A stretch of 64,000 bases of DNA from Sphingobacteriaceae bacterium (GTDB lineage Bacteria > Bacteroidota > Bacteroidia > B-17B0 > Aurantibacillaceae), in assembly GCA_002319075.1 (NCBI GenBank), contig NVQB01000001.1, positions 2,294,001 through 2,358,000 of the forward strand. Direction: 5' to 3'. Positions within the stretch are counted from its first letter, which is position 1; each line of letters opens with the position of its first letter. Below, one piece after another: positions 25,180 through 40,540 of the stretch. The notes beneath the pieces are model-generated. The model made no database searches. It was given only the letters and a program-made list of their open reading frames with translations, and had not been told where the DNA came from. A program made the position numbers and the translations under genes.

Positions 25180-27333
25180 ATGATGAAATTAAATTACTAT
25201 CTCTTTGCTTTTATTCTTGGATCTCTGCTAAGCACTGCACAAAGCGTTGCATTTGATAAAGCAAATTTTCCTGGGAAAAAAGATGAATTTAAAGATGCTG
25301 CCCGCAAGTTAGATGCAGGGACCGATTTTTACACTCAGGCGCGAAAAGAGTTTGACGAACAACGACGCTATTTTTTGATGACTAACCGGTATTTACCGGT
25401 TAGTCATCACGACCATCGTAGAGCGGGATACGCTCTTTTCAGAAGTGCCCTGAGCCCTCTTTCTGATGCCAACACCTTTAATCCAAATAATTTTGAGCTC
25501 AATTACATGCTGGGTTTCATCTGGTTTAATACCGATCCTGTTAGCAAGGAAACACTGAGATTTTTTGAAGCCGCTTATAAATTAAGACCCGAAAAAGAAA
25601 CAGATCTTTCATTTTGGTTAGCATGGACTTATCAATTAAACAATAATTGGAACGAGGCAATAAAACTTTACAATAGCTTTCTCCAAACGCTTCTTCCCAA
25701 AGCAAAACTTAATGCAGGAAATATTGAAGACATTAAAAAGAAAATTTCTGAATGCGAAATAGGTAAAAAGTTAAGCGAAAATCCGGAAAGAGTTTTTGTG
25801 GACAATCTTGGCAACACAATAAATACTGCCTACCCAGAATACGGGCCATCCATTTCAACAGATGAAGCTACGATCTTTTTTACCGCCCGTAGATCGAATT
25901 CTGTTGGGGGAAAAAGAGATCTTAGCGACAATGGGTTTTTTGAAGATGTTTATACCTCAGAAAAAAAGGATGGTAAATGGCTTCCGTCAAAACAACTTAG
26001 TAAAAACGTTAACACCGACGACCACGATGCTACTGCAGGACTCTCTCCCGACGGAAGCAAACTCTATGTATACAGAAACATTGGAAACGACGGTGGAGAT
26101 TTGTACGAAAGTGTACTATTTGGTCTCGACTGGGAAGAACCGGTGCGCATGAACAAAAACATCAACACAAAATACCATGAGTCTACTGTAAGTCTAAGCT
26201 TTGATGGCAAGCGTCTGTTTTTTGTTACGGATAGGGAGTCTGGGATTGGCGCCCAAGACATTTATTACAGCGATATGGATGTAAATGGCGAATGGGGCAT
26301 TTCAAAAAATATAGGTCCTGAGCTTAACACCAAATACAGAGAAGAGGGCGTTTTTATGCATCCAGATGGTGTAACTCTTTATTTCAGCAGTCAAGGACAT
26401 GGCTCTATGGGAGGTTTTGACATTTTCAAATCCACTTTAGAAAACGGGAAATGGTCCCCGCCAATAAATCTTGGTTATCCGATAAATGGACCTGATGATG
26501 ATGTTTTTTTTGTTGTAAGCGGAAGTGGTAACCGTGCTTACTTTGCCTCTGCTAAACAGGGAGGGTTTGGAGAGCAGGATATTTATAAAATCACTTTCCT
26601 GGGTCCGGAGAAACAACCCCTTTTAAACACACAAGATCAGCTTATAGCAGCAGTTGGTAATGCCGTGAGTAATTTTAAAACAGAAAGCGCTGTAGAGGTT
26701 AAATCGTCTAAATTGACCATTTTAAAAGGAATTATAACAGACGAAAAAAGCCAAAAGCCCATTGAGGCTACTATCGAATTAACCGACAATGAAAAAGGAG
26801 TTCTTCTTGCTACCTTTAAATCTAATAGGAGTTCTGGAAAATACCTCGTAACACTACCCAGTGGGAAAAATTACGGACTTGCAGTTAAAAGCTTTGGTTA
26901 TCTTTTTCACTCCGAGAACTTTAATCTTCCTGAAACCGCTGAATTCCAGGAGTTTAACCTGAACATAATTTTGAAGAAAATGGAAGTGGGAACTTCCGTA
27001 GTTTTAAAGAATATTTTCTTTGATTTCGATAAATCAACTATTAAGCCCGAATCCCAAAGCGAATTAAACCGGCTTATTAAACTCCTCAAAGACAATCCTG
27101 CGTTAAAGATTGAATTGTCAAGCCACACCGATGATGTTGGTTCTGACGAGTACAATACCCGTTTAAGTTTCTCGCGATCAAATTCGGTGGTAGATTATCT
27201 TATAGCCAAAGGTATTTCCCCTGCTCGTTTAATTCCTAAAGGATATGGAGAAAGTGCGCCTATCGATAAAAACGATACAGAAGAAGGCAGACAAAATAAC
27301 AGACGCACAGAGTTTAAAATTCTCTCTAAATAG
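25180..27333 (+). CDS. PorE-like TPR/beta-propeller/OmpA envelope protein
   Basis: This 717-aa protein has a signal peptide (~1-20) and a TPR-like segment (~90-190). A five-bladed PD40 propeller (~210-490) shows repeated SxDGxxLYF phrases. A carboxypeptidase regulatory-like domain (~510-600) and a C-terminal OmpA peptidoglycan-binding domain (~605-717, with IELSSHTDDVGS and NNRRTEFKI) follow. This order matches PorE of the type IX secretion system, although related proteins exist outside it. The N-terminal region carries an unusual in-frame palindrome at 25376-25409. The gene probably shares a transcript with the TPR gene upstream. Confidence 0.82.
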   Translation: MMKLNYYLFAFILGSLLSTAQSVAFDKANFPGKKDEFKDAARKLDAGTDFYTQARKEFDEQRRYFLMTNRYLPVSHHDHRRAGYALFRSALSPLSDANTFNPNNFELNYMLGFIWFNTDPVSKETLRFFEAAYKLRPEKETDLSFWLAWTYQLNNNWNEAIKLYNSFLQTLLPKAKLNAGNIEDIKKKISECEIGKKLSENPERVFVDNLGNTINTAYPEYGPSISTDEATIFFTARRSNSVGGKRDLSDNGFFEDVYTSEKKDGKWLPSKQLSKNVNTDDHDATAGLSPDGSKLYVYRNIGNDGGDLYESVLFGLDWEEPVRMNKNINTKYHESTVSLSFDGKRLFFVTDRESGIGAQDIYYSDMDVNGEWGISKNIGPELNTKYREEGVFMHPDGVTLYFSSQGHGSMGGFDIFKSTLENGKWSPPINLGYPINGPDDDVFFVVSGSGNRAYFASAKQGGFGEQDIYKITFLGPEKQPLLNTQDQLIAAVGNAVSNFKTESAVEVKSSKLTILKGIITDEKSQKPIEATIELTDNEKGVLLATFKSNRSSGKYLVTLPSGKNYGLAVKSFGYLFHSENFNLPETAEFQEFNLNIILKKMEVGTSVVLKNIFFDFDKSTIKPESQSELNRLIKLLKDNPALKIELSSHTDDVGSDEYNTRLSFSRSNSVVDYLIAKGISPARLIPKGYGESAPIDKNDTEEGRQNNRRTEFKILSK
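25376..25409. repeat. Near-perfect palindrome inside the PorE-like gene
   Basis: Left arm TGATGACTAACCGGTA (25376-25391), a 2-base TT spacer, and the exact reverse complement TACCGGTTAGTCATCA (25394-25409). It is read in frame as part of RYFLMTNRYLPVSHHDH, just before the TPR region. Confidence 0.9.
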
Positions 27334-27612
27334 CATAAGTATTTTTCTCGTTAAAAATCTCTTAGTGTAAGCGTTCAATTTGTATTGGCAGACTTACACT
27401 TTTACATCCCCTGGATCTTGCGTTTTTTTAAACCATATAGATACCTTGACTGCCAGGGCTTACGATTAACATTATGGCGTTAGTGTATTCTTAAGTATAT
27501 ATCGCCCCTCTTCCATCTGGATCATGATTTTGCCCATATGATCAAATTAAGACCATTAGAAGCCCCAGAAGGTGCAAGCTGAATTGGCCTTTACTCATTG
27601 ATTAATTTGTTG

Positions 27613-27628
27613 CGTTCCACGTGAAACA
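27613..27628. promoter_or_regulatory. parS-like ParB-binding site (15/16)
   Basis: The 16-mer CGTTCCACGTGAAACA differs from TGTTCCACGTGAAACA only at its first base. It lies in the desert, 280 bp after the PorE-like gene. Confidence 0.8.
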
Positions 27629-28504
27629 ATTGCGTTGAGCATTGATGGATTTAAAGAATAAAAACCGCATTAAATCTCTGGCGAATGAAGTCAAAATCCT
27701 TACTAATCCTTATTCGTGGGATTATTTTATACCATACCTTATTGATTAACGCTTCATAGATTCTCCCAAAACTCGGTCTTCCATCAGACATATAAGTTGC
27801 CTTTTGTTGTATTTAAGTCCTCGTCGTGCATATAGGAACAGCTAAAGTGTATTAGAGACCTTGGCAAAGGCTTAATGGCAAAAATATGAGCATTGCTACC
27901 AATCGAAAACCTCGGGTCAGACTATCCCAATGAACGTTATCGTTTCAGGAAATCTTTATGAGCTGATAAAAACTTTGCGCCGCTTGTACACTTTAGGATA
28001 AGTGATAAAAAATTGCTGCACTAACCATTCCGAGACAAAGTATCGGGTTATGCTAAACTAGGCCCCTCTAATAACCACCTCCTATTGTTTTGAATGATTT
28101 TCTTGTTGAGCTTATTCACTAACAGGTAATCGAAATCGGTATTATTTTCCAGCCACTTTCCTTTATAATTCCCGGTAGAATTTAAACGACTAAATAATCG
28201 GTACAAACATCAATTTAGATTCTAGCACGTCAAAACGCCAACCTACCACCTTCTAGAACCTCTACAATTGAATTTACCGACGTCGATACAATGTGTTCTA
28301 ACATATTACCAATTTTAAACTCAGATCAAGTAACTAACAGAGTTATACGCCTCATAGCAACTTTCGTTTAACAAGACATAATTATATAAAGAGCCTTTTG
28401 CCCAAAAACGAACCAAGCTCTTCGAGCATATATCGACAACACATTGATTCAATACGAACTCACGGGAATTAGTCGTAACGATATTTTCAGGGATACAAAA
28501 AAGA

Positions 28505-28520
28505 TGTTCCACGTGAAACA
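28505..28520. promoter_or_regulatory. parS ParB-binding site (16/16)
   Basis: A perfect TGTTCCACGTGAAACA in the gene desert, 390 bp left of the tandem array. The sequence is the conserved chromosomal parS site bound by ParB/Spo0J. Confidence 0.92.
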
Positions 28521-28906
28521 AATGCACGAAAAAACGCGATATGCTCTTAATGATAGAGGGGGTTCTGTGTACGAGAATAAACGCATTCCATTTGTAGAAC
28601 AGACCAAAAGCAGGAAGTGTTGCCATTAACTCTAATGCACTTCACATCTATTTTCAGGTTTTGATAAAAAATGCCCACCCAGCTATAATGAAATCCCACC
28701 CCTCTTCCAGTAAAGCACACTTCTTTCATGATTGTACTAGGCGCTATATGGATCATAAACCACAATGCATTTAAATAACTATTAAATGATTTGCAAGGAA
28801 TGCTAGCATCTTTTATTTAAGAAATTCATAGGAACGCCTCTGGTTGAGCTCCACTAATAGACAAAAAGCTAACCGCGCTAAGTATGGAATACAAGCAAAC
28901 AAACCG

Positions 28907-30245
28907 ACTTTGTATCATGGGTGAATCAACACAATTATTCCGCTGCTTACTATGCTTGAAGACATCGAAGTTTACCTTCAATAGTCTTTCCTTGTACAAG
29001 AAGGCAAAACCAGCTAAGCTTAAAATACAACCAAACAGAACTATAGGGAATGATAGGTATAAGGCAAACGTGTCTATGGCAATCATTTTGGAGGCAGGGC
29101 AGGTTTGATTCGATACAACTACGATGTACAAAAAAAGAAACGGGGTACGAAAATTAAACACAACCACACAGAACTATTATGGATCGGTAACTCAACACAA
29201 TCTTCTCTGTGTTGATCATACTGGGAGATATCCAGGTTAGCTTCGATACATTTTCCTTATGCATAAAAGCGAAGCGTGTTAGGAGACTTAAACAATACTA
29301 TTCTGGATCGGAACTTAACACAATCTCATCTGTTAAACATGATGGGACAACTCCAGCTTCGCTTCGATAAACTCCCTTTTACATAAAACCGGGGTAAGAA
29401 TTAAAGATAATCAAACAGAACTATTCCGGATCGGTAATACAAGACCATCTTCTCTCTGTTGATCATATTACAGAAATCCATCATTGTAAAAAACTTAACC
29501 CAGCCAAGTTCATACGAACCAAACTTTACTATAGTGCATAATGGGTAATCTAGCTCAAACATGACTCTGCTGATCATTGTGGGAGACATCCAGTTGCTTC
29601 GATATATTTTCCTGCTGCATAATAGGGAAGTGGGTTAGGAGGCTTAAACTATCCGACAATACTATTCTGGATCGATACTCAACACAATCTTATCTGTTAA
29701 TCATGATGGCACAAATCCAGCCTCGCTTCGATAAACTTCCTTGTTACAAAAAACCGGGTAAGAGAACTAAAGACATTCAAACAGAAGTATTCCGGATGGG
29801 TAAAACACGACCACCTTCTCTCTATTGATATTAAAAAAACCCAGGCTTGTTCTATATACTTTCCTTGTACAAAAAACTAAACCCATCTAAGTTTTAAACT
29901 CAACCAAACTTTACTATGGTAGGTAAGCTAACGCAAACTTGTCTCTACTGATCATGATGGGAGAGATCCCGGTTTGCTTCGATACATTTTCTTTATGCAT
30001 AAAAACGATGGGGGCTAAGAGAATTAAACAGACCATTCTGGATTGGTAACTCAGCGCAATCTTCTCTGTGCTGATCATCATGGAGACATCCAGTTGCCTC
30101 AACACATTTTCCTGCATAAAAGCAAAGCCGGGTAAGAGAATTAACAGAGTTGTTCTGGATCCCCTAAGTCCACACAATTATCCTATCTGTTGATCAAGCT
30201 GTGAGAAATGTATATTTCGTTCCCAGAGTCTATCTTTATACAACC
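28907..30245. repeat. Degenerate tandem array, 11 units of about 106-136 bp with higher-order period
   Basis: Unit boundaries read by eye are 28907, 29039, 29172, 29297, 29419, 29525, 29661, 29785, 29910, 30032 and 30148; the last is partial. Shared words are TATTCTGGATCGGTAA, AACACAATCTTCTCTGTTGA, TGATCATGATGGGAGA, ATCCAG, GCTTCGATACATTTTCCTT and GCATAAAAGC. Units fall into three types in order a-b-c, so units 4/7, 5/8 and 6/9 match best, at offsets of 364, 366 and 385 bp. Unit lengths are mostly not multiples of three and no frame is kept, so the array is not coding. Confidence 0.85.
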
Positions 30246-30526
30246 CTAGGTTTTGCTAAACAAACTACAAATGTTAGGAAAAGATCCACAGACATAAGTA
30301 CCCCAACTCTCTTACGTTAACACAAAGTGGCAGACTAAGTTTAGCTTGATTAATCACTCACGAAATTCTAAATACATAGACCGTTATCGAAAATCTTCCC
30401 TCTGCGGTTAAATAAAATAAGCTGGACCTATCTCTTAATAAGAACTTGGTTCACAAAAATAGAATACATTTAAGTGAGCGTGGTAAGGTTAAGCGTGAAA
30501 CAAGTTCTCCAGATACCCCCATAAAA

Positions 30527-30551
30527 AAGCTCCAACAAATTGTTGGAGCTT
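30527..30551 (-). terminator. Rho-independent terminator of the mnmG-side minus-strand genes
   Basis: Arms AAGCTCCAACAA (30527-30538) and TTGTTGGAGCTT (30540-30551) form a strong stem. On the minus strand it is followed by TTTTTTAT. It ends transcription of the methyltransferase gene and marks the right edge of the desert. Confidence 0.88.
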
Positions 30552-30578
30552 AATAAAGGAATCTAGCTAATACACCTT

Positions 30579-31463
30579 CTATTTGAATCTAAACATGTAT
30601 ATAACGCTAGAGTAATCTCCAGCATCCTTAGCCTTAAGGTTTGATTTAAGGCCATTTAAAAAGGCACTAAAATACCTTATAGATCCTGTTTTGTATTTCT
30701 CACTAAGCATGCTTACATAAAAGCTATCGAATTTCATGGGAAGCTTTTGTGATAAAGTAAAGCCGTATTCTGAAAGAAGCGCTGTTATACTTATTGGGTC
30801 AAAATGATAAAGATGCCTTGGAACATCATAAGCTGCCCAAAATTGTTTGTAATGATTTGCATCATAACTTGTATGATTAGGAACCGCGATTATTAGAACC
30901 CCATCGCGATTCAATCTCGCTTTCAAAAAGTTGAGTGTATCTTCAAGGTCTGTCACATGCTCCAGTACGTGCCATAAAGTAATTGCGTCAAATTTCTCAT
31001 CCGGATAAGCTTTGCTCAATTCAGTCTTATCGGCGTGTACCTTAAGATTCATATCCCGGGCAATTTTTCTTGCACCGGAATCGGGCTCCATGCCTATAGA
31101 TCTCCAACCAGCATTTTGACATACATCTAAAAACATTCCTGTTCCACATCCATAGTCTAAAATTGTTCCACGTGAAACATTTGATGATACGAGTGCGAGT
31201 TTGTTCTTTAGTGTGTAATTTCTAACCAAATGATAAAGCCTCGATATGATTCCTTTTTTTGTATTAGAATGCGAAATATAATCTTCCGATTTATAATAAT
31301 TTCCCAAATCCGAAAACTCTGGAATGGGGTTAGTAAATTTAAAACTGCATTGCTTACACGAAACAATTTCAAATTTTTCATGACTTACTGTGTAATCTTC
31401 GCAAGTAATAAAGTGCTCGAAGTTTTGGTTTTTACAAACCGGGCAATGGGTATGATTATGCAT
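30579..31463 (-). CDS. Class I SAM-dependent methyltransferase with N-terminal zinc ribbon; contains a parS site
   Basis: This 294-aa protein has an N-terminal zinc ribbon (HCPVC and CKQC) and a Rossmann methyltransferase domain. Motif I is ILDYGCGTG (~106-114), with GMEPDSGARK at the end of strand 2 and ALTLWHVLEHV at motif IV. It is similar in layout to the gene at 17847. The substrate is unknown. A perfect parS site (31164-31179) is embedded in the coding sequence, encoding VSRGT directly before motif I, and a second sits just upstream of the start codon. It follows mnmG with a 24-bp gap and shares its direction. Confidence 0.8.
   Translation of the reverse strand: MHNHTHCPVCKNQNFEHFITCEDYTVSHEKFEIVSCKQCSFKFTNPIPEFSDLGNYYKSEDYISHSNTKKGIISRLYHLVRNYTLKNKLALVSSNVSRGTILDYGCGTGMFLDVCQNAGWRSIGMEPDSGARKIARDMNLKVHADKTELSKAYPDEKFDAITLWHVLEHVTDLEDTLNFLKARLNRDGVLIIAVPNHTSYDANHYKQFWAAYDVPRHLYHFDPISITALLSEYGFTLSQKLPMKFDSFYVSMLSEKYKTGSIRYFSAFLNGLKSNLKAKDAGDYSSVIYMFRFK
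31164..31179. promoter_or_regulatory. parS ParB-binding site inside a coding sequence (16/16)
   Basis: A perfect TGTTCCACGTGAAACA within the methyltransferase gene. On the coding strand it specifies V-S-R-G-T. Confidence 0.92.
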
Positions 31464-31471
31464 AATAGAAT

Positions 31472-31487
31472 TGTTCCACGTGAAACA
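31472..31487. promoter_or_regulatory. parS ParB-binding site between mnmG and the methyltransferase gene (16/16)
   Basis: A perfect TGTTCCACGTGAAACA. It fills most of the 24-bp gap between the mnmG stop (31488) and the methyltransferase start (31463). Confidence 0.92.
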
Positions 31488-33389
31488 TTAACGGCCAAGG
31501 TGGATTAAAAGAACTGAAACATCAGCAGGATTGATTCCCGAAATTCTACTTGCCTGACCGATTGTGGCTGGTTTAAATTTATTAAGTTTTTCTTTTGCTT
31601 CCGCGCCTAAACCACCAACGGTATCAAAATTGAATTCAGAGCTTATTATTAGGTCTTCTAATCTTTTAAGTTTGTCGGCGTTCTCTCTCTCTCTTTCAAT
31701 ATATCCTTCATATTTCATTAAAATCTCAGCTTGCTCTAAAACGTCATTGCTAAAATTTTTCATAGCTGAAGCAAGAACAGGATCATTGTTTTTAATATCC
31801 GGAATTCCGATGTTGGGGCGAGAAAGGATGTTTGTATATCTTAATTTTTGATTGATAGGGGCGGAGCCTATCGACTCTAAAAACGGATTAATAACTTCAG
31901 GTTCTACACTCGTATTTTTAAAATATGAAATTACCTTATTGTAGTTTTCTACTTTCTCATTTACGGCATTAAATCTTTCTTCACTTGCCAAACCTATAGT
32001 TCTTGAAATTGGAGTAAGACGAACGTCTGCATTATCTTGTCTTAACAACAAACGGTACTCTGCTCTAGAAGTAAACATACGATAAGGCTCATCGGTTCCT
32101 TTTGTAACAAGGTCATCAATTAAAACTCCTATGTAAGCTTCATAACGATTTAAAACCAGTGGTTTCTTATCTGATATTTTAAGATGTGCATTTATACCTG
32201 CCATTAAACCCTGGCAAGCCGCTTCTTCATATCCGGTAGTTCCATTAATTTGTCCTGCGAAATAAAGATTATCTACCAGATGTGTTTCGAGGGTTAATTT
32301 TAATTGTGTAGGTGGAAAATAATCATATTCTATGGCGTATCCAGGACGAAACATTTTTGCATTCTCGAGTCCAGGGATTAAGCGCAACGCTTTTTGCTGA
32401 ACATCTTCGGGTAGGGAAGAAGAAAACCCATTCAAATAAATCTCAACAGTGTTCCAACCTTCAGGCTCAACAAATAATTGATGTCTTTCCCTTTCGCTAA
32501 ATCTCGTAATTTTATCTTCAATGCTTGGACAATACCTTGGCCCAAGCCCTTGAATTCTTCCTTGAAACATAGGCGATTTTTCAAACCCGGTTTTTAGAAT
32601 ATCGTGTACTTTTTGATTTGTATATGTTACGTGACACGGAAGTTGCTTTTTTGGGTTAGCTCCTATAAAAGGAGATGTTCCGTCTAAATAAGAAAATTTA
32701 TCAATTACTTCGTCACCACCTTGTTCTTCCATTTTGGAATAATCTAAAGATCTTCCATCTATCCTTGGAGGGGTGCCGGTTTTCATTCTTCCACTTTCAA
32801 ATCCTATTTGGACTAGTTGTTCCGTTATTCCATGGCTTGCCGACTCTCCAGTTCTCCCTCCTCCTAATTGTTTTTCTCCAATATGAATAATGCCGTTTAA
32901 AAAAGTTCCATTTGTAAGAACCACCGCTTTGGCTCTAAATTCCATTCCCATTCCCGTAATAATTCCTTCTACGCGTTTTCCGTCTTTCGAAATTATTAAT
33001 TGTCTCACCATGTCCTGCCAGAAATCTACGTTTGGAGTTTGTTCCAACATTTCGCGCCATAAACCTGCAAACATCATTCTGTCATTTTGCGTGCGTGGAC
33101 TCCACATAGCAGGACCTTTACTTCTGTTTAGCATACGAAATTGTATCGCACTTTTATCCGAAACAATACCACTATAACCTCCAAGTGCATCAATCTCTCT
33201 AACAATTTGTCCTTTAGCAATTCCACCCATTGCAGGATTGCAACTCATCTGTGCGATGGTTTGCATATTCATAGTAACCAATAAAACCTTGGATCCCATG
33301 TTGGCCGCAGCTGCAGCTGCTTCACAGCCTGCATGTCCCGCTCCAACTACTATAATATCGTAAGAATTTTGCAAGATAATTTTTTGCAA
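31488..33389 (-). CDS. mnmG: tRNA uridine-5-carboxymethylaminomethyl modification enzyme MnmG (GidA)
   Basis: At 633 aa this is full length for MnmG, the FAD enzyme that with MnmE modifies wobble uridine U34 of several tRNAs. The FAD-binding motif [19 protein letters not shown] (~15-33) and the conserved [36 protein letters not shown] and [16 protein letters not shown] segments are present. No ATG exists between the upstream in-frame stop and the FAD motif. The start must be TTG at 33389 or, more likely, TTG at 33374 ([11 protein letters not shown]), because a -7 promoter element overlaps the first TTG. mnmG (gidA) is a classical neighbour of oriC in other bacteria. Confidence 0.96.
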
Positions 33390-34034: not shown

Positions 34035-34469
34035 TTAAATGTCTATTTTTTCTACGCGAGCCTGGTGACGTCCGCCTTCAAATTTTGTGCTTAAAAAAAT
34101 ATCAAGGCATTTCTCTGCTTCTTCCATTGTTATGTACCTGGCAGGTAAAACAAGTATGTTAGCATCATTATGTAAACGGGCCAAACTTGCTATTTCTGAA
34201 TTCCAACACAATGCAGCTCTAATACCAGCGTGTTTATTGGCACTCATATTAATACCATTACCGCTTCCACACATTAAAACACCAAAATCTACCTCTTTAT
34301 TAAGAACAGACATAGCCACTGCATGGCCAAAATCAGGATAATCAGCTCTTTCCGCTGAATAACATCCTTTGTCATTAACTGAATAAGTTTTAGACTTTAA
34401 ATAATCCAGTAAATGTTGTTTTAAATCAAAACCTGCATGATCAGAGCCTATTGCAATTTTTATACTCAT
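34035..34469 (-). CDS. rpiB: Ribose-5-phosphate isomerase B
   Basis: RpiB interconverts ribose 5-phosphate and ribulose 5-phosphate. The 144-aa product has the family start (IAIGSDHAGFDLKQHL), the active-site cysteine motif CGSGNGINMSANK, and the HNDANILVLPAR segment; all agree with RpiB. I chose ATG 34469 because the family starts directly before IAIGSDHAG and the bases before it are A-rich. The open frame also extends to a GTG at 34490. The promoter probably lies at 34506-34513, at the left edge of the AT-rich region. Confidence 0.92.
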   Translation of the reverse strand: MSIKIAIGSDHAGFDLKQHLLDYLKSKTYSVNDKGCYSAERADYPDFGHAVAMSVLNKEVDFGVLMCGSGNGINMSANKHAGIRAALCWNSEIASLARLHNDANILVLPARYITMEEAEKCLDIFLSTKFEGGRHQARVEKIDI

Positions 34470-34505
34470 ATTTTTTATATCTAAATGCACTTATAAATGA
34501 TTGTT

Positions 34506-34513
34506 CAAAAATA
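34506..34513 (-). promoter_or_regulatory. Candidate rpiB promoter (-7 element TATTTTTG)
   Basis: TATTTTTG on the minus strand matches TANNTTTG. It would give a leader of about 30 nt to the ATG at 34469. No clear -33 TTTG. Confidence 0.4.
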
Positions 34514-34849
34514 CTAATCAACGCTAATTAACACTAATAAATTAACTAACTGATAATGAACCATACGAAATACCTATTAATGAACATTATGTATGTTAGT
34601 TACTTTAATTAACGTTAATAAGTAAAAGCAACATTTTTACCATTTATCCAATACTACTTCTGCATGCATTATTTCTTTTCATTTCCTAGCAAAGTTATCA
34701 TTATCCATCATAATTTATCAGAGTGTTTTTTAGGTTTCTAACATTCATACAAAGCCTTTATTTATTAAGACTCATAAGTACTAACTAATGTTAATAGTAG
34801 TTACGAGTACTGGTAATCAGCTTTTTAAATTATTAAATTTGTTTAAGAC

Positions 34850-34907
34850 CTGTTAACTAGTTTTCATAAACTTAAAAAACGAATTAAAAACAAAAACTAG
34901 TTAACAG
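34850..34907. repeat. Perfect 15-bp inverted repeat in the AT-rich region
   Basis: CTGTTAACTAGTTTT (34850-34864) and AAAACTAGTTAACAG (34893-34907) are exact reverse complements separated by 28 A/T-rich bases. Confidence 0.9.
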
Positions 34908-35040
34908 TATTAACATCTTATATATAGTAATACATACTTTTTAAAAATTTTAAAAAAATAAAATATATATATTATATATAGGATGAGTAATTATAAAATT
35001 TATCTCTATTTGATTTATATTTTTTTTGAACTACATTTAA

Positions 35041-36723
35041 ATGCTGAAGACAATGATTAAGTACCATTTTCATATAATTTACTTTTCCTTATTATTTTTC
35101 TTCAATTCTTTCTTTTTAAGTTCCCAAACCACTAATCCGAATGGCTACAATAAATTTTACTACGAAAATGGTAAAATAAGTAGCGAAGGTCTAATGAAGG
35201 ATGGTAAACCTAATGGTTATTGGAAGAATTATTACAAAAATGGAAAAGTGAAAATTGAAGGAAATAGAAAGAACTTTCAATTAGACAGTATCTGGAAATT
35301 TTATGATGAGAAGGGTAGAATAACAAAATCAATTGATTATAGGGATGGCAAGAAAAATGGCGTAAGTGCCACATATGATACTTTAGGAAAAGTGACATTG
35401 ATTGAAAATTACGCTAACGACGTAAAAGAAGGATTAACAAGGAATTTTTATAAATCGGGAAAGACAAAGTCTATTACTCCATTTATTAAAGGCAGACAAG
35501 AAGGCATTGCATATGAATTTAGCCAGGATTCATTAATTACCGGTATATCAACTTACAAGGGTGGAATTTTACAGGGTTATGAAAAAATAAATCAGTTGGA
35601 TGAAAATAATAAGAAGCAAGGTATCTGGAAGGAATTTTATGACAATAAAGAAGTAAAAAAAGAACAAAAATTCAATGATGATTCGTTAGATGGGTATGTA
35701 AAGGAATTTGATAGTAAAGGCAATCTCTTGTCAACTAAAAAATTCAATTTAGGAAAGCAAATATTTAACGCCCCTGAAATTGCTAACGTAGAGGTGTACA
35801 GAGAAGTATTCGAAGACGGGACTTTAAAATATGAAGGAGTTTACAGTGATGGTGTAGCTATTGGTACACATTTTAAATACATTCAAAAAAGAAGATGTGA
35901 TAGTAGCTCATTCAGAAGAGATGATACAACTGATATTTTTGTAAGAAGACTTGTTTGCAGAAATGTTCCTATTCCTGATAGTGCTATAGAATATTTTGAT
36001 GGAACACTTGTAGCTAAAGGAGCCGTTGATAGTATGAGAAACAGAATTGGTGTCTGGACAGAATATCACAATACTGGTGAATTTAGAGGAAAAGGTGTTT
36101 ATAAAGAAGGTAATAGAACAGGAGACTGGAAGTTCTTCTATGCTTCGGGTAAATTAGAACAAGAAGGTAAATATGATAAAAAAGGGAGAGCGCAAGGTCC
36201 CTGGAAGTGGTATTACGAAAGTGGTAAATTATGGCGCGAAGAAACTTATATTAATGGCAGACGCGACGGTGAAATGAAAGATTACGATGAAGAAGGAAAC
36301 GTAATAATGCAGGGAATGTACATTGACGGAAAAAAAGAAGGCAGATGGACATATGAGAATGCGGATTACAAAGAATTTGGTAATTATGTAAATGATGAAC
36401 CGGATAGTTTATGGAAAAGCTATACTATGCCGGGAAAGATAAAAAGGTTTGAAGGAAGGTTTTTAGCAGGTGAAGCAGTTGGATTGCATCAAGGATATCA
36501 CACAAACGGCGCGCGCGCTTATGTTGGGAACTATGTAAATGGTATGAAGGACGGGGATTGGAAATACTATGATGAAAATGACTTTAATTATTTGGTTGTA
36601 ACTTATAAAAATGATATTGAAATAAAATGGCAGGGTGAAAAGATTCGTCCAACCTATGAAGAAAGCTTACGTACTTATACTATAAAAATTAATGAAAACA
36701 AAACTCAGACAATAAGAAAATAG
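35041..36723 (+). CDS. Exported MORN-variant repeat protein
   Basis: This 560-aa protein has a signal peptide (cleavage near residue 28, SSQ) and is then almost entirely MORN-variant repeats of the YwqK type. Typical phrases are YYENGKISSEG, GYWKNYYKNGKVKIEG, GDWKFFYASGKLEQEG and WKWYYESGKLWREE. Such repeats form an elongated beta-hairpin stack; their roles are mostly unknown. Eight bases separate it from the PAS kinase gene, and eight more separate that from the LytTR regulator. The three therefore look like one operon and this protein could be its sensory or output partner. Confidence 0.85.
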   Translation: MLKTMIKYHFHIIYFSLLFFFNSFFLSSQTTNPNGYNKFYYENGKISSEGLMKDGKPNGYWKNYYKNGKVKIEGNRKNFQLDSIWKFYDEKGRITKSIDYRDGKKNGVSATYDTLGKVTLIENYANDVKEGLTRNFYKSGKTKSITPFIKGRQEGIAYEFSQDSLITGISTYKGGILQGYEKINQLDENNKKQGIWKEFYDNKEVKKEQKFNDDSLDGYVKEFDSKGNLLSTKKFNLGKQIFNAPEIANVEVYREVFEDGTLKYEGVYSDGVAIGTHFKYIQKRRCDSSSFRRDDTTDIFVRRLVCRNVPIPDSAIEYFDGTLVAKGAVDSMRNRIGVWTEYHNTGEFRGKGVYKEGNRTGDWKFFYASGKLEQEGKYDKKGRAQGPWKWYYESGKLWREETYINGRRDGEMKDYDEEGNVIMQGMYIDGKKEGRWTYENADYKEFGNYVNDEPDSLWKSYTMPGKIKRFEGRFLAGEAVGLHQGYHTNGARAYVGNYVNGMKDGDWKYYDENDFNYLVVTYKNDIEIKWQGEKIRPTYEESLRTYTIKINENKTQTIRK

Positions 36724-36731
36724 ATAAAATT

Positions 36732-39700
36732 ATGGCAGTAAAGCACCCATTCCAGGTTGATGAAAACACTCTTAATTTACTGCCTGTTGCTGTTATATTA
36801 TTTGATGAAAAAAGATTTTATTTTTTAAATAAAAAAGCAATAGAAATTTTAGCTATTCCTGTAAAGCTTCTAAAAACAAAAGATACACTTTCTATATTTC
36901 AATTTATCAGTGAAAAAATTCATCCTGAAGTAAGGAAGAATATAAAGCTTGTACTCAAAGGTAGCGAACTTCCGGCTATGGAAGTGAAGGTTATTAATTA
37001 CAAGAAAAAGAATATTTTTATTGAAGCAAATTCGAATTTAGCTTTTTATAACTCTAAGAAAGTAGTACAAACAACTTTTTCAGAAATATCTGTCAGGAAA
37101 AATCTTTCTATTGAAGGAGAAAATGCCAGAGATATTTTACAAAAAATAAGTAGTAACAGTGAGGATGTTATCTTTCATCTGAGTTTTTTTCCACATCCAA
37201 AACTAAAGTTTATAAGTGATTCTTCAAAAAAGATACTTGGGTATACACCAGAAGAGGTTTATAAAACAAATGGTTTGATAGAATCAAGCATTCACAAAGA
37301 CGATAGAGCTTTAATTGTTACTACAAAAAAAGAGTATTTAGAGAAAAGCAAAGCAAAAAACGAACATAAAGTTATAGTTCGCTTTAAGCACAAAAAAGGA
37401 AAAGAAAAAAAGCTTGAAATAGCTGTCAACCCTGTATTTAATAGTCAAAAAGAACTTAGTGGACTTATTGGCAATATGCGGGATGTTACAGATAGTATAG
37501 AAACAGAGAGTTTATTGATTGAAACAAAAAATAAGTTCGATCTCATTACCAATAATGGGAATGATATTATAGCGTTTTATACTTACTATCCAAAGGAAAA
37601 ATATCTTTATGTAAGTCCAAATATTAAGAAAATACTTGGATATGATTACAAGGAACTACTCAATGATCACACTTTCTTTTCGAGGTATTTACTTGGAGAT
37701 AAAGAAGTGTTTTCTAAAACTGAAAAATTAATAAAGGGGTATCAGAAAAAAAACATAGTAAAAAACCACCATTTTTCGTTTAAAATACTTAAAAAATCGG
37801 GAGAGGAAGTTTGGCTGGAAAATAGCCTTGTTCCAATAACGAATGCAAAAGGAAAGATTGATTTTTTCATAAATATTTTAAGAGATATTACCGAACAAAA
37901 AGAGGCTGATATTGAAATTGAAAATCAATATTTTAATTATAGAAATTTACTCGATTATTCACCAGTAGCTTACGTAATTCACGATCATGGAGTTTGTTTA
38001 TATGTGAACAATGCTCTTATGGATCTTATGAAGGTGAAGAGTAAGAACCAGATCCTTGGCAAATTCATGTTGGATTTTTTTAAGCAATCTGACCGAAAAA
38101 GAGGCATGGAACGTATGCAGGAAATTTATACAAGAAAAAAGGGCCTGGATAAATTTTTTAATTATACTATAAAGGATGCCGAAAAAAATGAGATTGAAGT
38201 AGAGATAAAATCTGTACAAATTAAATTCAATAATAAAGATTGCGTTCTTTCTCTTGTAAATAACTTAACGGAGCAACAGCAGAGAGAAAACGAAAAAGTA
38301 AAAGCACAAATTACTGAGAGTACAAATAAACAATTACAAAAAGAGATTAAAGAAAGAAAAGACGCAGAGAAAAACTTAACCGATAAAACGGCCCATCTTT
38401 CAGCTATTTTTGAAAGTTCTACCCATCTAATTTGGTCCGTTAACAGTGATTTTAAGGTAACCTCATTCAACAGAAATTTTTTCAGTACTGTAAAGCTTCA
38501 GCAAGGAATTACAATAAAACCCGGGTATAAGATTGACGAACATCTTATAAAAAATCGCGATCAGTATATTCAATTTTGGTATACTAAGTATGCTGAAGCA
38601 TTTAAAGGAAAAAAACTTGAGTTTGAGAAGGATGACATTAATAATGGAAGAAAGGTTTACAGGAAAGTTTTTATAAATCCCATTTTTAACGAGCTTAACC
38701 AAGTTAAGGAGATCAGTTGCATAGCCAGTGATATTACTGATTCGAAGATTTATGAACAAAAACTCCTGAATCAAACAGGAAAACTGAGCGCTATTTTCGA
38801 CAGTAGTCATCATTACATTTGGACCATTGATCATGATGGAAAACTAACCTCTTTCAATAAAAATTATTATGACCTTATCACCAGTATTTATAATACAAAA
38901 CCGTTTCTTGGTATTGTATTAAACAGGGGGGTTTTAGCTAATGATAAAGAATACACCGAACTTTTACAATTTCACTATGACAAATCTTTTCGGGGATTGG
39001 CAACAAATTTTGAAATAGAAACAAGAGATAAGGACAATAAGAATATTTATCTGGAGGTGTTTTTTAATCCGATATACGAAAATGAAAGAGTAGTAGAAGT
39101 TAGCGGTATAGCTCATAACATTACCGAAAAAAAACATGTACAGCAAAGAATGGAATTTTCTTTGAAAGAAAAAGAAGTTTTACTCAGAGAGGTGCATCAC
39201 CGTGTTAAAAATAATATGCAGGTTATCAGTAGTATTCTAAACTTGCAGTCCTCTTACGTTTCTGACGAGTATGCCTTAACGCTGTTAAAAGAGAGCCAGA
39301 ACCGCATAAAAACCATGGCTTACATTCACGAGAGTTTATATCAGAATAAGTCTTTCAGTTCAGTTGATTTTTCAGACTATGTTTACACGCTGGTGAATAA
39401 CATTGTTCAGTCTTATTCGGCTTCCAGCGAAAAAATTAAACTGGAGCTTAATATTGAAAAAGTATCACTCTCCCTAGATAGCTCTATACCTGCAGGGCTT
39501 ATTATAAACGAACTTATCACCAATGCTATAAAACACGCTTTCCCCGGGGAGAAACAAGGAATAATTACCTTTAATTTACGGTGCGAAAATAATTTTGTAT
39601 TTTTAGAGTTGAAAGATAACGGCGTTGGATTTGCTCCAGGGATCGATTTTGAGAATAGCCACTCGCTTGGTTTACAATTAGTTAACACTCTTATAGAACA

Positions 39701-39773
39701 GATAGAGGGGAAGTTAAAATTTAAATCAAAAAAGGATATGGGTACCGAAGTTTTAGTTACTTTTAAAATGTAA
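36732..39773 (+). CDS. Multi-PAS cytosolic sensor histidine kinase (HisKA_2 type)
   Basis: This 1013-aa protein has no signal peptide or membrane helix. Five to six PAS domains can be placed at about 12-125, 135-255, 265-390, 400-520, 555-680 and 690-815, several ending in typical PAC phrases such as FFINILRDITEQKEA. A HisKA_2 domain with phospho-acceptor His823 (VHHRVKNNMQ) and a HATPase_c domain with DNGVGF and LGLQLVNTL boxes complete it. It probably senses an intracellular signal such as redox state or a ligand. It pairs with the LytTR regulator immediately downstream. Confidence 0.9.
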   Translation: MAVKHPFQVDENTLNLLPVAVILFDEKRFYFLNKKAIEILAIPVKLLKTKDTLSIFQFISEKIHPEVRKNIKLVLKGSELPAMEVKVINYKKKNIFIEANSNLAFYNSKKVVQTTFSEISVRKNLSIEGENARDILQKISSNSEDVIFHLSFFPHPKLKFISDSSKKILGYTPEEVYKTNGLIESSIHKDDRALIVTTKKEYLEKSKAKNEHKVIVRFKHKKGKEKKLEIAVNPVFNSQKELSGLIGNMRDVTDSIETESLLIETKNKFDLITNNGNDIIAFYTYYPKEKYLYVSPNIKKILGYDYKELLNDHTFFSRYLLGDKEVFSKTEKLIKGYQKKNIVKNHHFSFKILKKSGEEVWLENSLVPITNAKGKIDFFINILRDITEQKEADIEIENQYFNYRNLLDYSPVAYVIHDHGVCLYVNNALMDLMKVKSKNQILGKFMLDFFKQSDRKRGMERMQEIYTRKKGLDKFFNYTIKDAEKNEIEVEIKSVQIKFNNKDCVLSLVNNLTEQQQRENEKVKAQITESTNKQLQKEIKERKDAEKNLTDKTAHLSAIFESSTHLIWSVNSDFKVTSFNRNFFSTVKLQQGITIKPGYKIDEHLIKNRDQYIQFWYTKYAEAFKGKKLEFEKDDINNGRKVYRKVFINPIFNELNQVKEISCIASDITDSKIYEQKLLNQTGKLSAIFDSSHHYIWTIDHDGKLTSFNKNYYDLITSIYNTKPFLGIVLNRGVLANDKEYTELLQFHYDKSFRGLATNFEIETRDKDNKNIYLEVFFNPIYENERVVEVSGIAHNITEKKHVQQRMEFSLKEKEVLLREVHHRVKNNMQVISSILNLQSSYVSDEYALTLLKESQNRIKTMAYIHESLYQNKSFSSVDFSDYVYTLVNNIVQSYSASSEKIKLELNIEKVSLSLDSSIPAGLIINELITNAIKHAFPGEKQGIITFNLRCENNFVFLELKDNGVGFAPGIDFENSHSLGLQLVNTLIEQIEGKLKFKSKKDMGTEVLVTFKM

Positions 39774-39781
39774 TTGTTATT

Positions 39782-40540
39782 ATGGAAAAGCTAAACATAT
39801 TTATTGTTGAAGATGAGAGTATAGTTGCTAAAGACATTCAAAATAGCCTCACTAAATTAGGTTATAACGTGATTGGATTTGCAAATAACGGGAAGGATGC
39901 TATTGATAAAATTACAGAGTTGATGCCCGATCTTATTTTGATGGATATCATGATAAAAGGTCCATTGACTGGCATTGAAGTGAGCGAGAAAATTAAGGAG
40001 AAAATGAATGTGCCGGTTATTTTCTTAACGGCGTATGCAGATGAAGGAACGCTTTCAAGAGCAAAAATAACTGAGCCATACGGATATATTTTAAAACCTT
40101 TCAAGGAAATTGACCTGCATTCTACAATAGAAATGGCGGTTTATAAACATCAGAAAGATTCGGCTTTATTAAAGGAAAGAGACTTTTTATATTCGCTTGT
40201 TGAAAACAAAGACGAAAAAGCAAAAGATATTTTGTTTGTAAAATCAAACAGTCGTTTAGTAAAAGTTTATTTGAAAGATATTTATTTTGTAGAAGCCCTT
40301 AAAGACTATGTGATTATAAATACAGAGTTTGCAAGATACACAGTGCATAGTACTATGAAAGAGCTGGATAAGAAACTTGGAAACGTTGAGTTTGTGAGGG
40401 TTCACCGTTCGTTTATTGCACGTCTTGATAAAATTCAAAGTATCGACAATCAGAATGTTGTTCTTGAAAACGAGAAAAAAATTATTCCGGTTGGTGGCTC
40501 TTATAGAGAAGAGTTGATGCAAAAGCTTAACCTGCTTTAA
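39782..40540 (+). CDS. LytTR-family response regulator
   Basis: This 252-aa protein has a receiver domain (1-~125, acidic pocket E10/D11, phospho-acceptor D55 in LILMDIMIKG, K at ILKPF) and a C-terminal LytTR DNA-binding domain (~150-252, with FVKSNSRLVKVYLKDIYFVE and FVRVHRSFIA). It is the expected partner of the PAS kinase 8 bp upstream. LytTR regulators bind DNA upstream of target genes; the targets are not visible here. Confidence 0.93.
   Translation: MEKLNIFIVEDESIVAKDIQNSLTKLGYNVIGFANNGKDAIDKITELMPDLILMDIMIKGPLTGIEVSEKIKEKMNVPVIFLTAYADEGTLSRAKITEPYGYILKPFKEIDLHSTIEMAVYKHQKDSALLKERDFLYSLVENKDEKAKDILFVKSNSRLVKVYLKDIYFVEALKDYVIINTEFARYTVHSTMKELDKKLGNVEFVRVHRSFIARLDKIQSIDNQNVVLENEKKIIPVGGSYREELMQKLNLL

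Follow-up and report, generated by a model that had tools for sequence, protein, structure and literature searches.

The gap between rpiB and a MORN-repeat gene

We analyzed a window of 64,000 nt from a Sphingobacteriaceae genome (positions 2294001-2358000 of contig NVQB01000001.1, which has 5,648,308 bases). Unless another sequence is named, coordinates refer to this window. The gap under study and the adjacent genes are:

34491-35040, no strand: candidate oriC (sampled GC-skew minimum, conservation across 39 homologous gaps, and single genomic match of model R1)
34035-34490, minus strand: rpiB (Pfam LacAB_rpiB, E 7.1e-58)
31488-33389, minus strand: mnmG (gidA; Pfam GIDA, E 1.2e-161)
35041-36723, plus strand: gene for a MORN-repeat protein (Pfam MORN_2, E 1.1e-31)

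As a preliminary description of this DNA had noted, the genes on both sides point away from the gap. On the left, the genes for RpiB, an ATP10-like protein, MnmG, and a methyltransferase are all on the minus strand. On the right, the genes for the MORN protein, a histidine kinase, a LytTR regulator, and a RadA-like protein are all on the plus strand. (The RadA name was read from Pfam domains.) The gap is not adjacent to dnaA, as an oriC may be: dnaA is at C1:1232907, 1.1 Mb from the window.

To compare this locus with its relatives, we searched for RpiB, which was found in 55 of 60 relatives; the named loci are the best 80 of 475. Among loci L102-L170, 62 extend 1,400 nt or more upstream of rpiB (some genomes contribute two loci). 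In 43 of the 62, including L104 and L121, nadA or a nadA-like ORF lies next to the gap, between the candidate origin and the MORN gene. The MORN gene follows directly in 12 loci, and it does so in the window genome, where nadA is absent from this place. (The ORF in L104 is NadA by Pfam, E 4.9e-123. Four other nadA-like ORFs were recognized by eye and the rest by a short motif in a script.) Farther to the right in the window, 36732-40540 holds a PAS-rich histidine kinase gene and then the LytTR regulator gene. The order MORN, PAS-rich histidine kinase, LytTR recurs in 24 of the 56 named loci that have at least 7 kb on the right side. In L137, L145, L148, and L157, mnmG lies on the opposite side of the candidate origin, past the LytTR gene, as after an inversion around the origin.

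The gap itself is AT-rich (GC 0.21) and contains these features:

34500-34620: left module, in which ATTAACA-like words form a conserved cluster on the two strands (39-gap alignment)
34608-34619: 12-bp palindrome ATTAACGTTAAT, formed by two box-like words in head-to-head orientation
34625-34755: spacer of about 130 bp that separates the two modules, poorly conserved (39-gap alignment)
34850-34907: perfect inverted repeat with 15-bp arms at 34850-34864 and 34893-34907, each of which contains a GTTAAC word
34916-34985: putative unwinding tract, TATATATA plus T/A runs, nearly pure A/T

In the left module, ATTAACA-like words are at 34522(-), 34527(+), 34580(+), 34594(-), and 34613(-). The right conserved module spans about 34760-34960 in the same alignment, and the A/T tract is conserved in its first part, to about 34960. 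An AT-rich tract adjoining the boxes is expected of an oriC, and the tract at 34916-34985 has this position; its melting is putative. The AT richness, the inverted repeats, the palindrome, and the nearly pure A/T tract had all been reported in the preliminary description, and we recovered each of them.

That description had also drawn attention to two short words. TTAAC occurs 10 times on the two strands of the gap, versus 3.85 in shuffles, and none of 300 shuffles reached this count. TTAAC/GTTAA led to the right element: the repeated word is ATTAACA (see below). TTATC occurs six times (plus strand 34644, 34695, 34701, 34715, and 35000; minus strand 34552) versus 1.95, a count reached by 1.7% of the 300 shuffles. 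So the TTATC words are present (four had been counted), and so are two 7-of-9 matches to the DnaA box, but these matches are no more than chance would give: when up to two mismatches to TTATCCACA are tolerated, the gap has 2 words, versus 2.37 expected. We therefore rejected the TTATC words as DnaA boxes. Genome-wide, TTATCCACA occurs 62 times, versus 57 for the reversed control.

Exact DnaA boxes had been described as missing, and neither exact TTATCCACA nor TTWTNCACA occurs within 34491-35040. Hence, the window's gap does not have a cluster of E. coli-type DnaA boxes. Since DnaA boxes are often species-specific (PMC10225481), their lack does not exclude an oriC. Across the window, no RNA family matched at the gathering threshold (Rfam).

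GC skew and parS sites

We computed cumulative GC skew, with interpolation, from the window and 100 stretches of 20 kb each, which together cover 2.06 Mb of the 5.65-Mb chromosome. In this sample of the chromosome, the minimum is inside the window, and the maximum is at the stretch beginning at 4,984,001, about 2.66 Mb away. A minimum far from 27-35 kb would have refuted the preliminary description, but the sampled minimum falls in the window, close to 35 kb. Negative skew persists across 28-34 kb, and the turn comes at about 35 kb; the running sum reaches its lowest value at 35,163 and has a flat course from about 34,750 to 35,250.

The skew minimum at the rpiB gap is repeated in a second complete genome of the genus, G001, which is a single contig. 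In G001, rpiB is at 956,882-957,313, the gap begins near 957,314, and parS sites are at 953,000-954,346. The sampled skew (40 stretches) is lowest at the stretch ending at 957,000, with a fine minimum at 957,971, and peaks near 3.1 of 4.6 Mb. The fine minima of the two genomes are each roughly 100 bp into the gene to the right of the gap; we infer that this offset is noise.

The exact parS sequence GTTNCACGTGAAAC occurs four times in the whole genome, always within 27614-31486 of the window and 3-7 kb from the gap (reversed control, 0). The proximity of mnmG and parS that had been described thus extends to all four sites:

27614-27627, plus strand: parS 1, exact match
28506-28519, plus strand: parS 2, exact match
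31165-31178, plus strand: parS 3, inside the methyltransferase gene
31473-31486, plus strand: parS 4, between the methyltransferase and mnmG genes

Four further members of the genus all have exact parS sites, about 2.5-6.4 kb from rpiB (with one reversed-control match, in G006). In a wider search, parS was found in 40 of 42 genomes; among the 29 of the 42 genomes listed, parS is on the rpiB contig in 24 and within 30 kb in 23. In another search, 13 of 16 genomes have parS, which is within 15 kb of rpiB in six and about 60-130 kb away in four. In the other three, the two are far apart (1.4 Mb in G180 and about 2 Mb in G074) or on different contigs (G101). The link between rpiB and parS is common, not general, within the class.

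The first two parS sites lie in a stretch of about 3.2 kb (27333-30579) in which no listed ORF exceeds 113 aa. The only ORF that was scanned there, 28321-28626, has no Pfam match, and the stretch has no Rfam match. It contains degenerate direct repeats with spacings of mostly about 246-380 bp, and TRF finds no tandem array in it. It looks like a decayed repeat region.

Conservation of the gap

We aligned 39 distinct gaps, out of 55 up to L170. (Loci without a recognizable nadA or MORN start were dropped.) From 35 of these sequences (L126, L130, L166, and L167 were left out), we built a sequence-only model, R1, of the region 34836-34964. We searched 43 genomes with R1 and found matches in 31 of them, once in 30 genomes and twice in G002. 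Most of the matching genomes supplied rows of R1, so for them this is a test of uniqueness and not of discovery. (The second match in G002, which is a draft genome, is C94:736-853; duplication and contamination are both candidate explanations.)

In 27 genomes, R1 matches immediately upstream of rpiB; four of these genomes are outside the family (G056, G077, G150, and G153). By handle, the four are not rows of R1 (species identity was judged by handle only), and the match in G153 is weak (E 0.0055). R1 had no match in 12 of the 43 genomes: G020, G025, and G033, which belong to the genus, and G042, G057, G095, G124, G141, G146, G151, G166, and G171. Elsewhere, the element is separated from rpiB. 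In G034, the match and rpiB are 1.9 kb apart, and a 487-residue ORF separates them. In G004, it is on the parS contig, 2-3 kb from parS, and rpiB is on another contig. In G005, the match and rpiB are on separate contigs, and G008 has a match to R1 but none to rpiB.

These arrangements bear on another reading, in which the gap is a divergent regulatory region for rpiB and nadA or MORN, and the origin is nearby, for instance at 27.3-30.6 kb. The gap is indeed placed between divergent genes, and that 3.2-kb stretch has two parS sites and no listed ORF over 113 aa. But the element is conserved whichever gene follows, nadA or MORN; it is away from rpiB in G034 and G004; and the skew stays negative through 28-34 kb and turns only at about 35 kb. 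We consider this reading quite improbable. The 27.3-30.6 kb stretch itself was rejected as the origin, with both skew and conservation against it.

We instead favor the gap as the oriC, because the skew minimum is there in two complete genomes of the genus, parS is 3-7 kb away, and the element is kept despite the change of neighbor. The preliminary description had proposed the same, and the skew minimum within the window, its agreement with a second genome, and the nearby parS sites all support that proposal.

ATTAACA is the repeated word

Across the 39 homologous gaps, ATTAACA is the top-scoring 7-mer. It occurs 160 times, versus 20.5 in dinucleotide shuffles, and is present in all 39 gaps. 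We then considered 27 gaps from other Bacteroidota, outside the 39-gap set. (These were mechanically defined gaps of at least 400 bp from the 41 loci L171-L211; the other 14 were shorter and were left out.) ATTAACA was again the top 7-mer, with 83 occurrences versus 15.0 (sd 3.9); 25 of the 27 gaps have at least one and 17 have at least three. For comparison, TTATNCACA occurs 3 times in these 27 gaps, versus 1.2.

When 208 TTAACA sites are extended to nine bases, place 1 is T, C, or G, place 2 is A (0.54) or T (0.42), and place 3 is A (0.77). The commonest nine-base form in the 39 gaps is TAATTAACA (65 versus 3.3); TTATTAACA occurs 10 times, versus 3.3. TWATTAACA is found in 38 of the 39 gaps.

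Several of the words are kept in place:

34527-34533, plus strand: box ATTAACA, exact in 30 of 39 homologous gaps and with at most one mismatch in 32
34789-34795, minus strand: box TGTTAAT (ATTAACA on the minus strand), exact in 29 of 39 and with at most one mismatch in 38
34898-34915, plus strand: tandem pair of abutting 9-mers TAGTTAACA-GTATTAACA, beside the AT tract

The second 7-mer of the tandem pair (34909) is exact in 30 of the 39 gaps and has at most one mismatch in 38. In most sequences, the proximal box of the pair starts with G or C; compared with TWATTAACA, it has one mismatch in 29 of 35 and zero mismatches in none of the 35.

The exact count of ATTAACA in the window genome's gap, taken alone, is unremarkable. 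There are only three exact words (2.0% of shuffles reach this) and one TWATTAACA, and in the 2.06-Mb sample, 33 of 40,169 overlapping 550-bp segments reach three. If one mismatch is allowed, the gap has 15 words, a count reached by 14 of the 40,169 segments; seven of these overlap the gap, and the other seven are in L075. (L075:9551-10400, which has 55% GC and is possibly repetitive, contains as many as 18 one-mismatch ATTAACA words in 550 bp.)

Since A+T makes up 79% of the gap and the sequences share ancestry, the cluster of words might be a by-product of AT richness and shared descent, with the skew minimum marking an approximate origin zone. Just 10 sampled segments are as AT-rich as the gap (GC up to 0.25), and three of them reach its count, so the AT-matched control is thin. 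Nevertheless, dinucleotide shuffles yield one eighth of the ATTAACA observed, and ATTAACA is kept at the same place in other families. Also, the mean majority-base fraction is 0.88 in eight boxes, versus 0.61 in the other 416 positions to 34960 (this contrast is biased towards the boxes, since their selection used the same alignment). We regard a by-product as very improbable; a cluster of a conserved, repeated initiator-box word is what an oriC should contain, and ATTAACA, found in every homologous gap and swapped with canonical boxes, appears to be such a word.

Canonical and variant boxes at the same places

Although the window's gap has no canonical TTWTNCACA box, 14 of the 39 homologous gaps do (26 boxes, versus 4.5 expected, sd 2.2). 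Exact TTATCCACA is in none of the 39. Most of the canonical boxes (20 of 26) are at four aligned places where other sequences carry the ATTAACA form. One of these is:

34594-34602, minus strand: aligned box place, canonical TTWTNCACA in 7 of 39 gaps and the ATTAACA form in 9 of 39

At the other three, the numbers of canonical and variant sequences are 4 and 4 at 34502(-), 1 and 1 at 34861(-), and 8 and 4 of 39 at 34898(+). (The last is the first place of the tandem pair, where the canonical box is TTTTACACA and the variant is the exact ATTAACA form.) The remaining six canonical boxes are at two places, 34733 and 34762, that have no exact variant box. A caveat is that the canonical boxes are concentrated in a single set of similar sequences (L137, L145, L148, L157, L158, and L161-L163), so they represent few independent events.

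Because canonical and variant boxes interchange at four aligned places, the ATTAACA form is probably a variant of the DnaA box. This interchange is the best sequence evidence, and we infer DnaA binding from it. The commonest form, TAATTAACA, differs from TTWTNCACA at positions 2 and 6. The form with A at position 6 (A6) is dominant in the 39 gaps but not exclusive. It seems that searches for the usual words would overlook such variant initiator-binding sites.

Alternatively, the gap could be the oriC, with the ATTAACA words as binding sites for some other conserved protein (nucleoid or regulatory) and DnaA using different sites. The region upstream of dnaA is compatible with this: ATTAACA, TTAACA, and TTATNCACA are all absent from the 1,077 bp there, and a box upstream of dnaA was accordingly rejected. 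Furthermore, about half of the TTAACA sites have A at position 2, and position 6 is A, where the nine-base boxes in the published reports that we cite have C. Against this, ATTAACA is the dominant repeated word of the homologous gaps, and 20 of the 26 canonical boxes share aligned places with it. We think that a different binding protein is unlikely, and that ATTAACA is instead probably a box for DnaA.

We also considered a DnaA-trio element (at least three trios, starting 0-16 nt from the box). The pattern is present in 12 of 35 sequences, including the window's own, and the shuffled fraction is 0.56 (as a control, the letters of the next 40 nt were shuffled). Trios were rejected, since the pattern is below the shuffled fraction.

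The DnaA protein

The residues of DnaA that contact bases are at positions 399, 423, 432-435, and 438-439 (PMC5043019). In an alignment to domain IV of the E. coli protein (1j1v), the DnaA of this genome has LATIG for LPEIG and GGKDHATVLHAC for GGRDHTTVLHAC. In the numbering of that alignment, the changes are P423A, R432K, and T435A; R399, H439, and the DH pair are kept. We also searched 40 genomes of the class with a 35-residue query from this region, and 38 gave a match, with identities of 35-100% (this is overall identity, not residue by residue). We hypothesize that the changes at 423, 432, and 435 allow A at position 6 of the box.

A model for initiation, and comparison to known origins

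In our proposed mechanism, which we consider highly likely overall, the gap is the chromosomal oriC. DnaA, encoded 1.1 Mb away, would bind an array of variant boxes in the two modules, whose core is ATTAACA and whose commonest nine-base form is TAATTAACA. It would then oligomerize from the tandem pair at 34898-34915, which would place the oligomer against TATATATA and the T/A tract. The AT tract at 34916-34985 would melt, and two forks would leave it in opposite directions.

Much of this resembles other bacterial origins: the skew minimum, nearby parS sites, an intergenic AT-rich tract, divergent genes, mnmG/gidA close by, and a clustered, repeated, non-palindromic word on both strands. What differs is that dnaA is 1.1 Mb away, that the repeated word is of the ATTAACA type, and that canonical boxes are absent from this gap, although 14 of 39 homologous ones have them.

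An oriC far from dnaA is reported to be common in the phylum (PMC4755523, on Prevotella intermedia). The oriC predictions for P. intermedia (PMC4755523) and Elizabethkingia meningoseptica (PMC8994065) were made with Ori-Finder, both with the E. coli box, which is the program's default (PMC10225481), and a tolerance of one mismatch. These origins are also distant from dnaA, but boxes of that kind are absent here. For Blattabacterium, whose genome has no dnaA, DnaA boxes were looked for and not found, and skew was used (PMC2768785).

The boxes of Epsilonproteobacteria (PMC5043019) are similar in that a lineage-specific core is coupled to variation at DnaA positions 432 and 435. Their core is TTCAC, with T at position 5, whereas here it is TTAAC, with A at position 6. 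According to PMC4285127, the boxes of H. pylori are the most distant nine-base boxes among the origins studied; "bacteroid" does not appear in its main text. The basal unwinding system of boxes and DnaA-trios, as outlined in PMC8287927, also has tandem boxes beside an AT-rich tract, but unlike in that system, the trio pattern here is not above chance. Our searches of open-access literature turned up no prior statement of a TTAACA-type DnaA box.

Implications

Chromosome replication in this bacterium very probably starts in the gap between rpiB and the MORN gene. More broadly, we lean slightly towards the view that in much of the class Bacteroidia, the main DnaA box is the A6 variant with an ATTAACA core. 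This variant and the canonical C6 box could replace each other at a given origin position, and the variant would be matched by the changes at DnaA 423, 432, and 435; the origin would be beside rpiB in many lineages, with dnaA moved away. If that variant is the main box, then the swap of canonical and variant boxes at aligned sites offers a direct test of the change in DnaA's specificity. (Plasmids carrying the oriC of Cytophaga hutchinsonii are reportedly the subject of a paper.) If the ATTAACA type is indeed the main box, then origins in this phylum could also be located from sequence, and oriC plasmids could be designed for hosts with few genetic tools.
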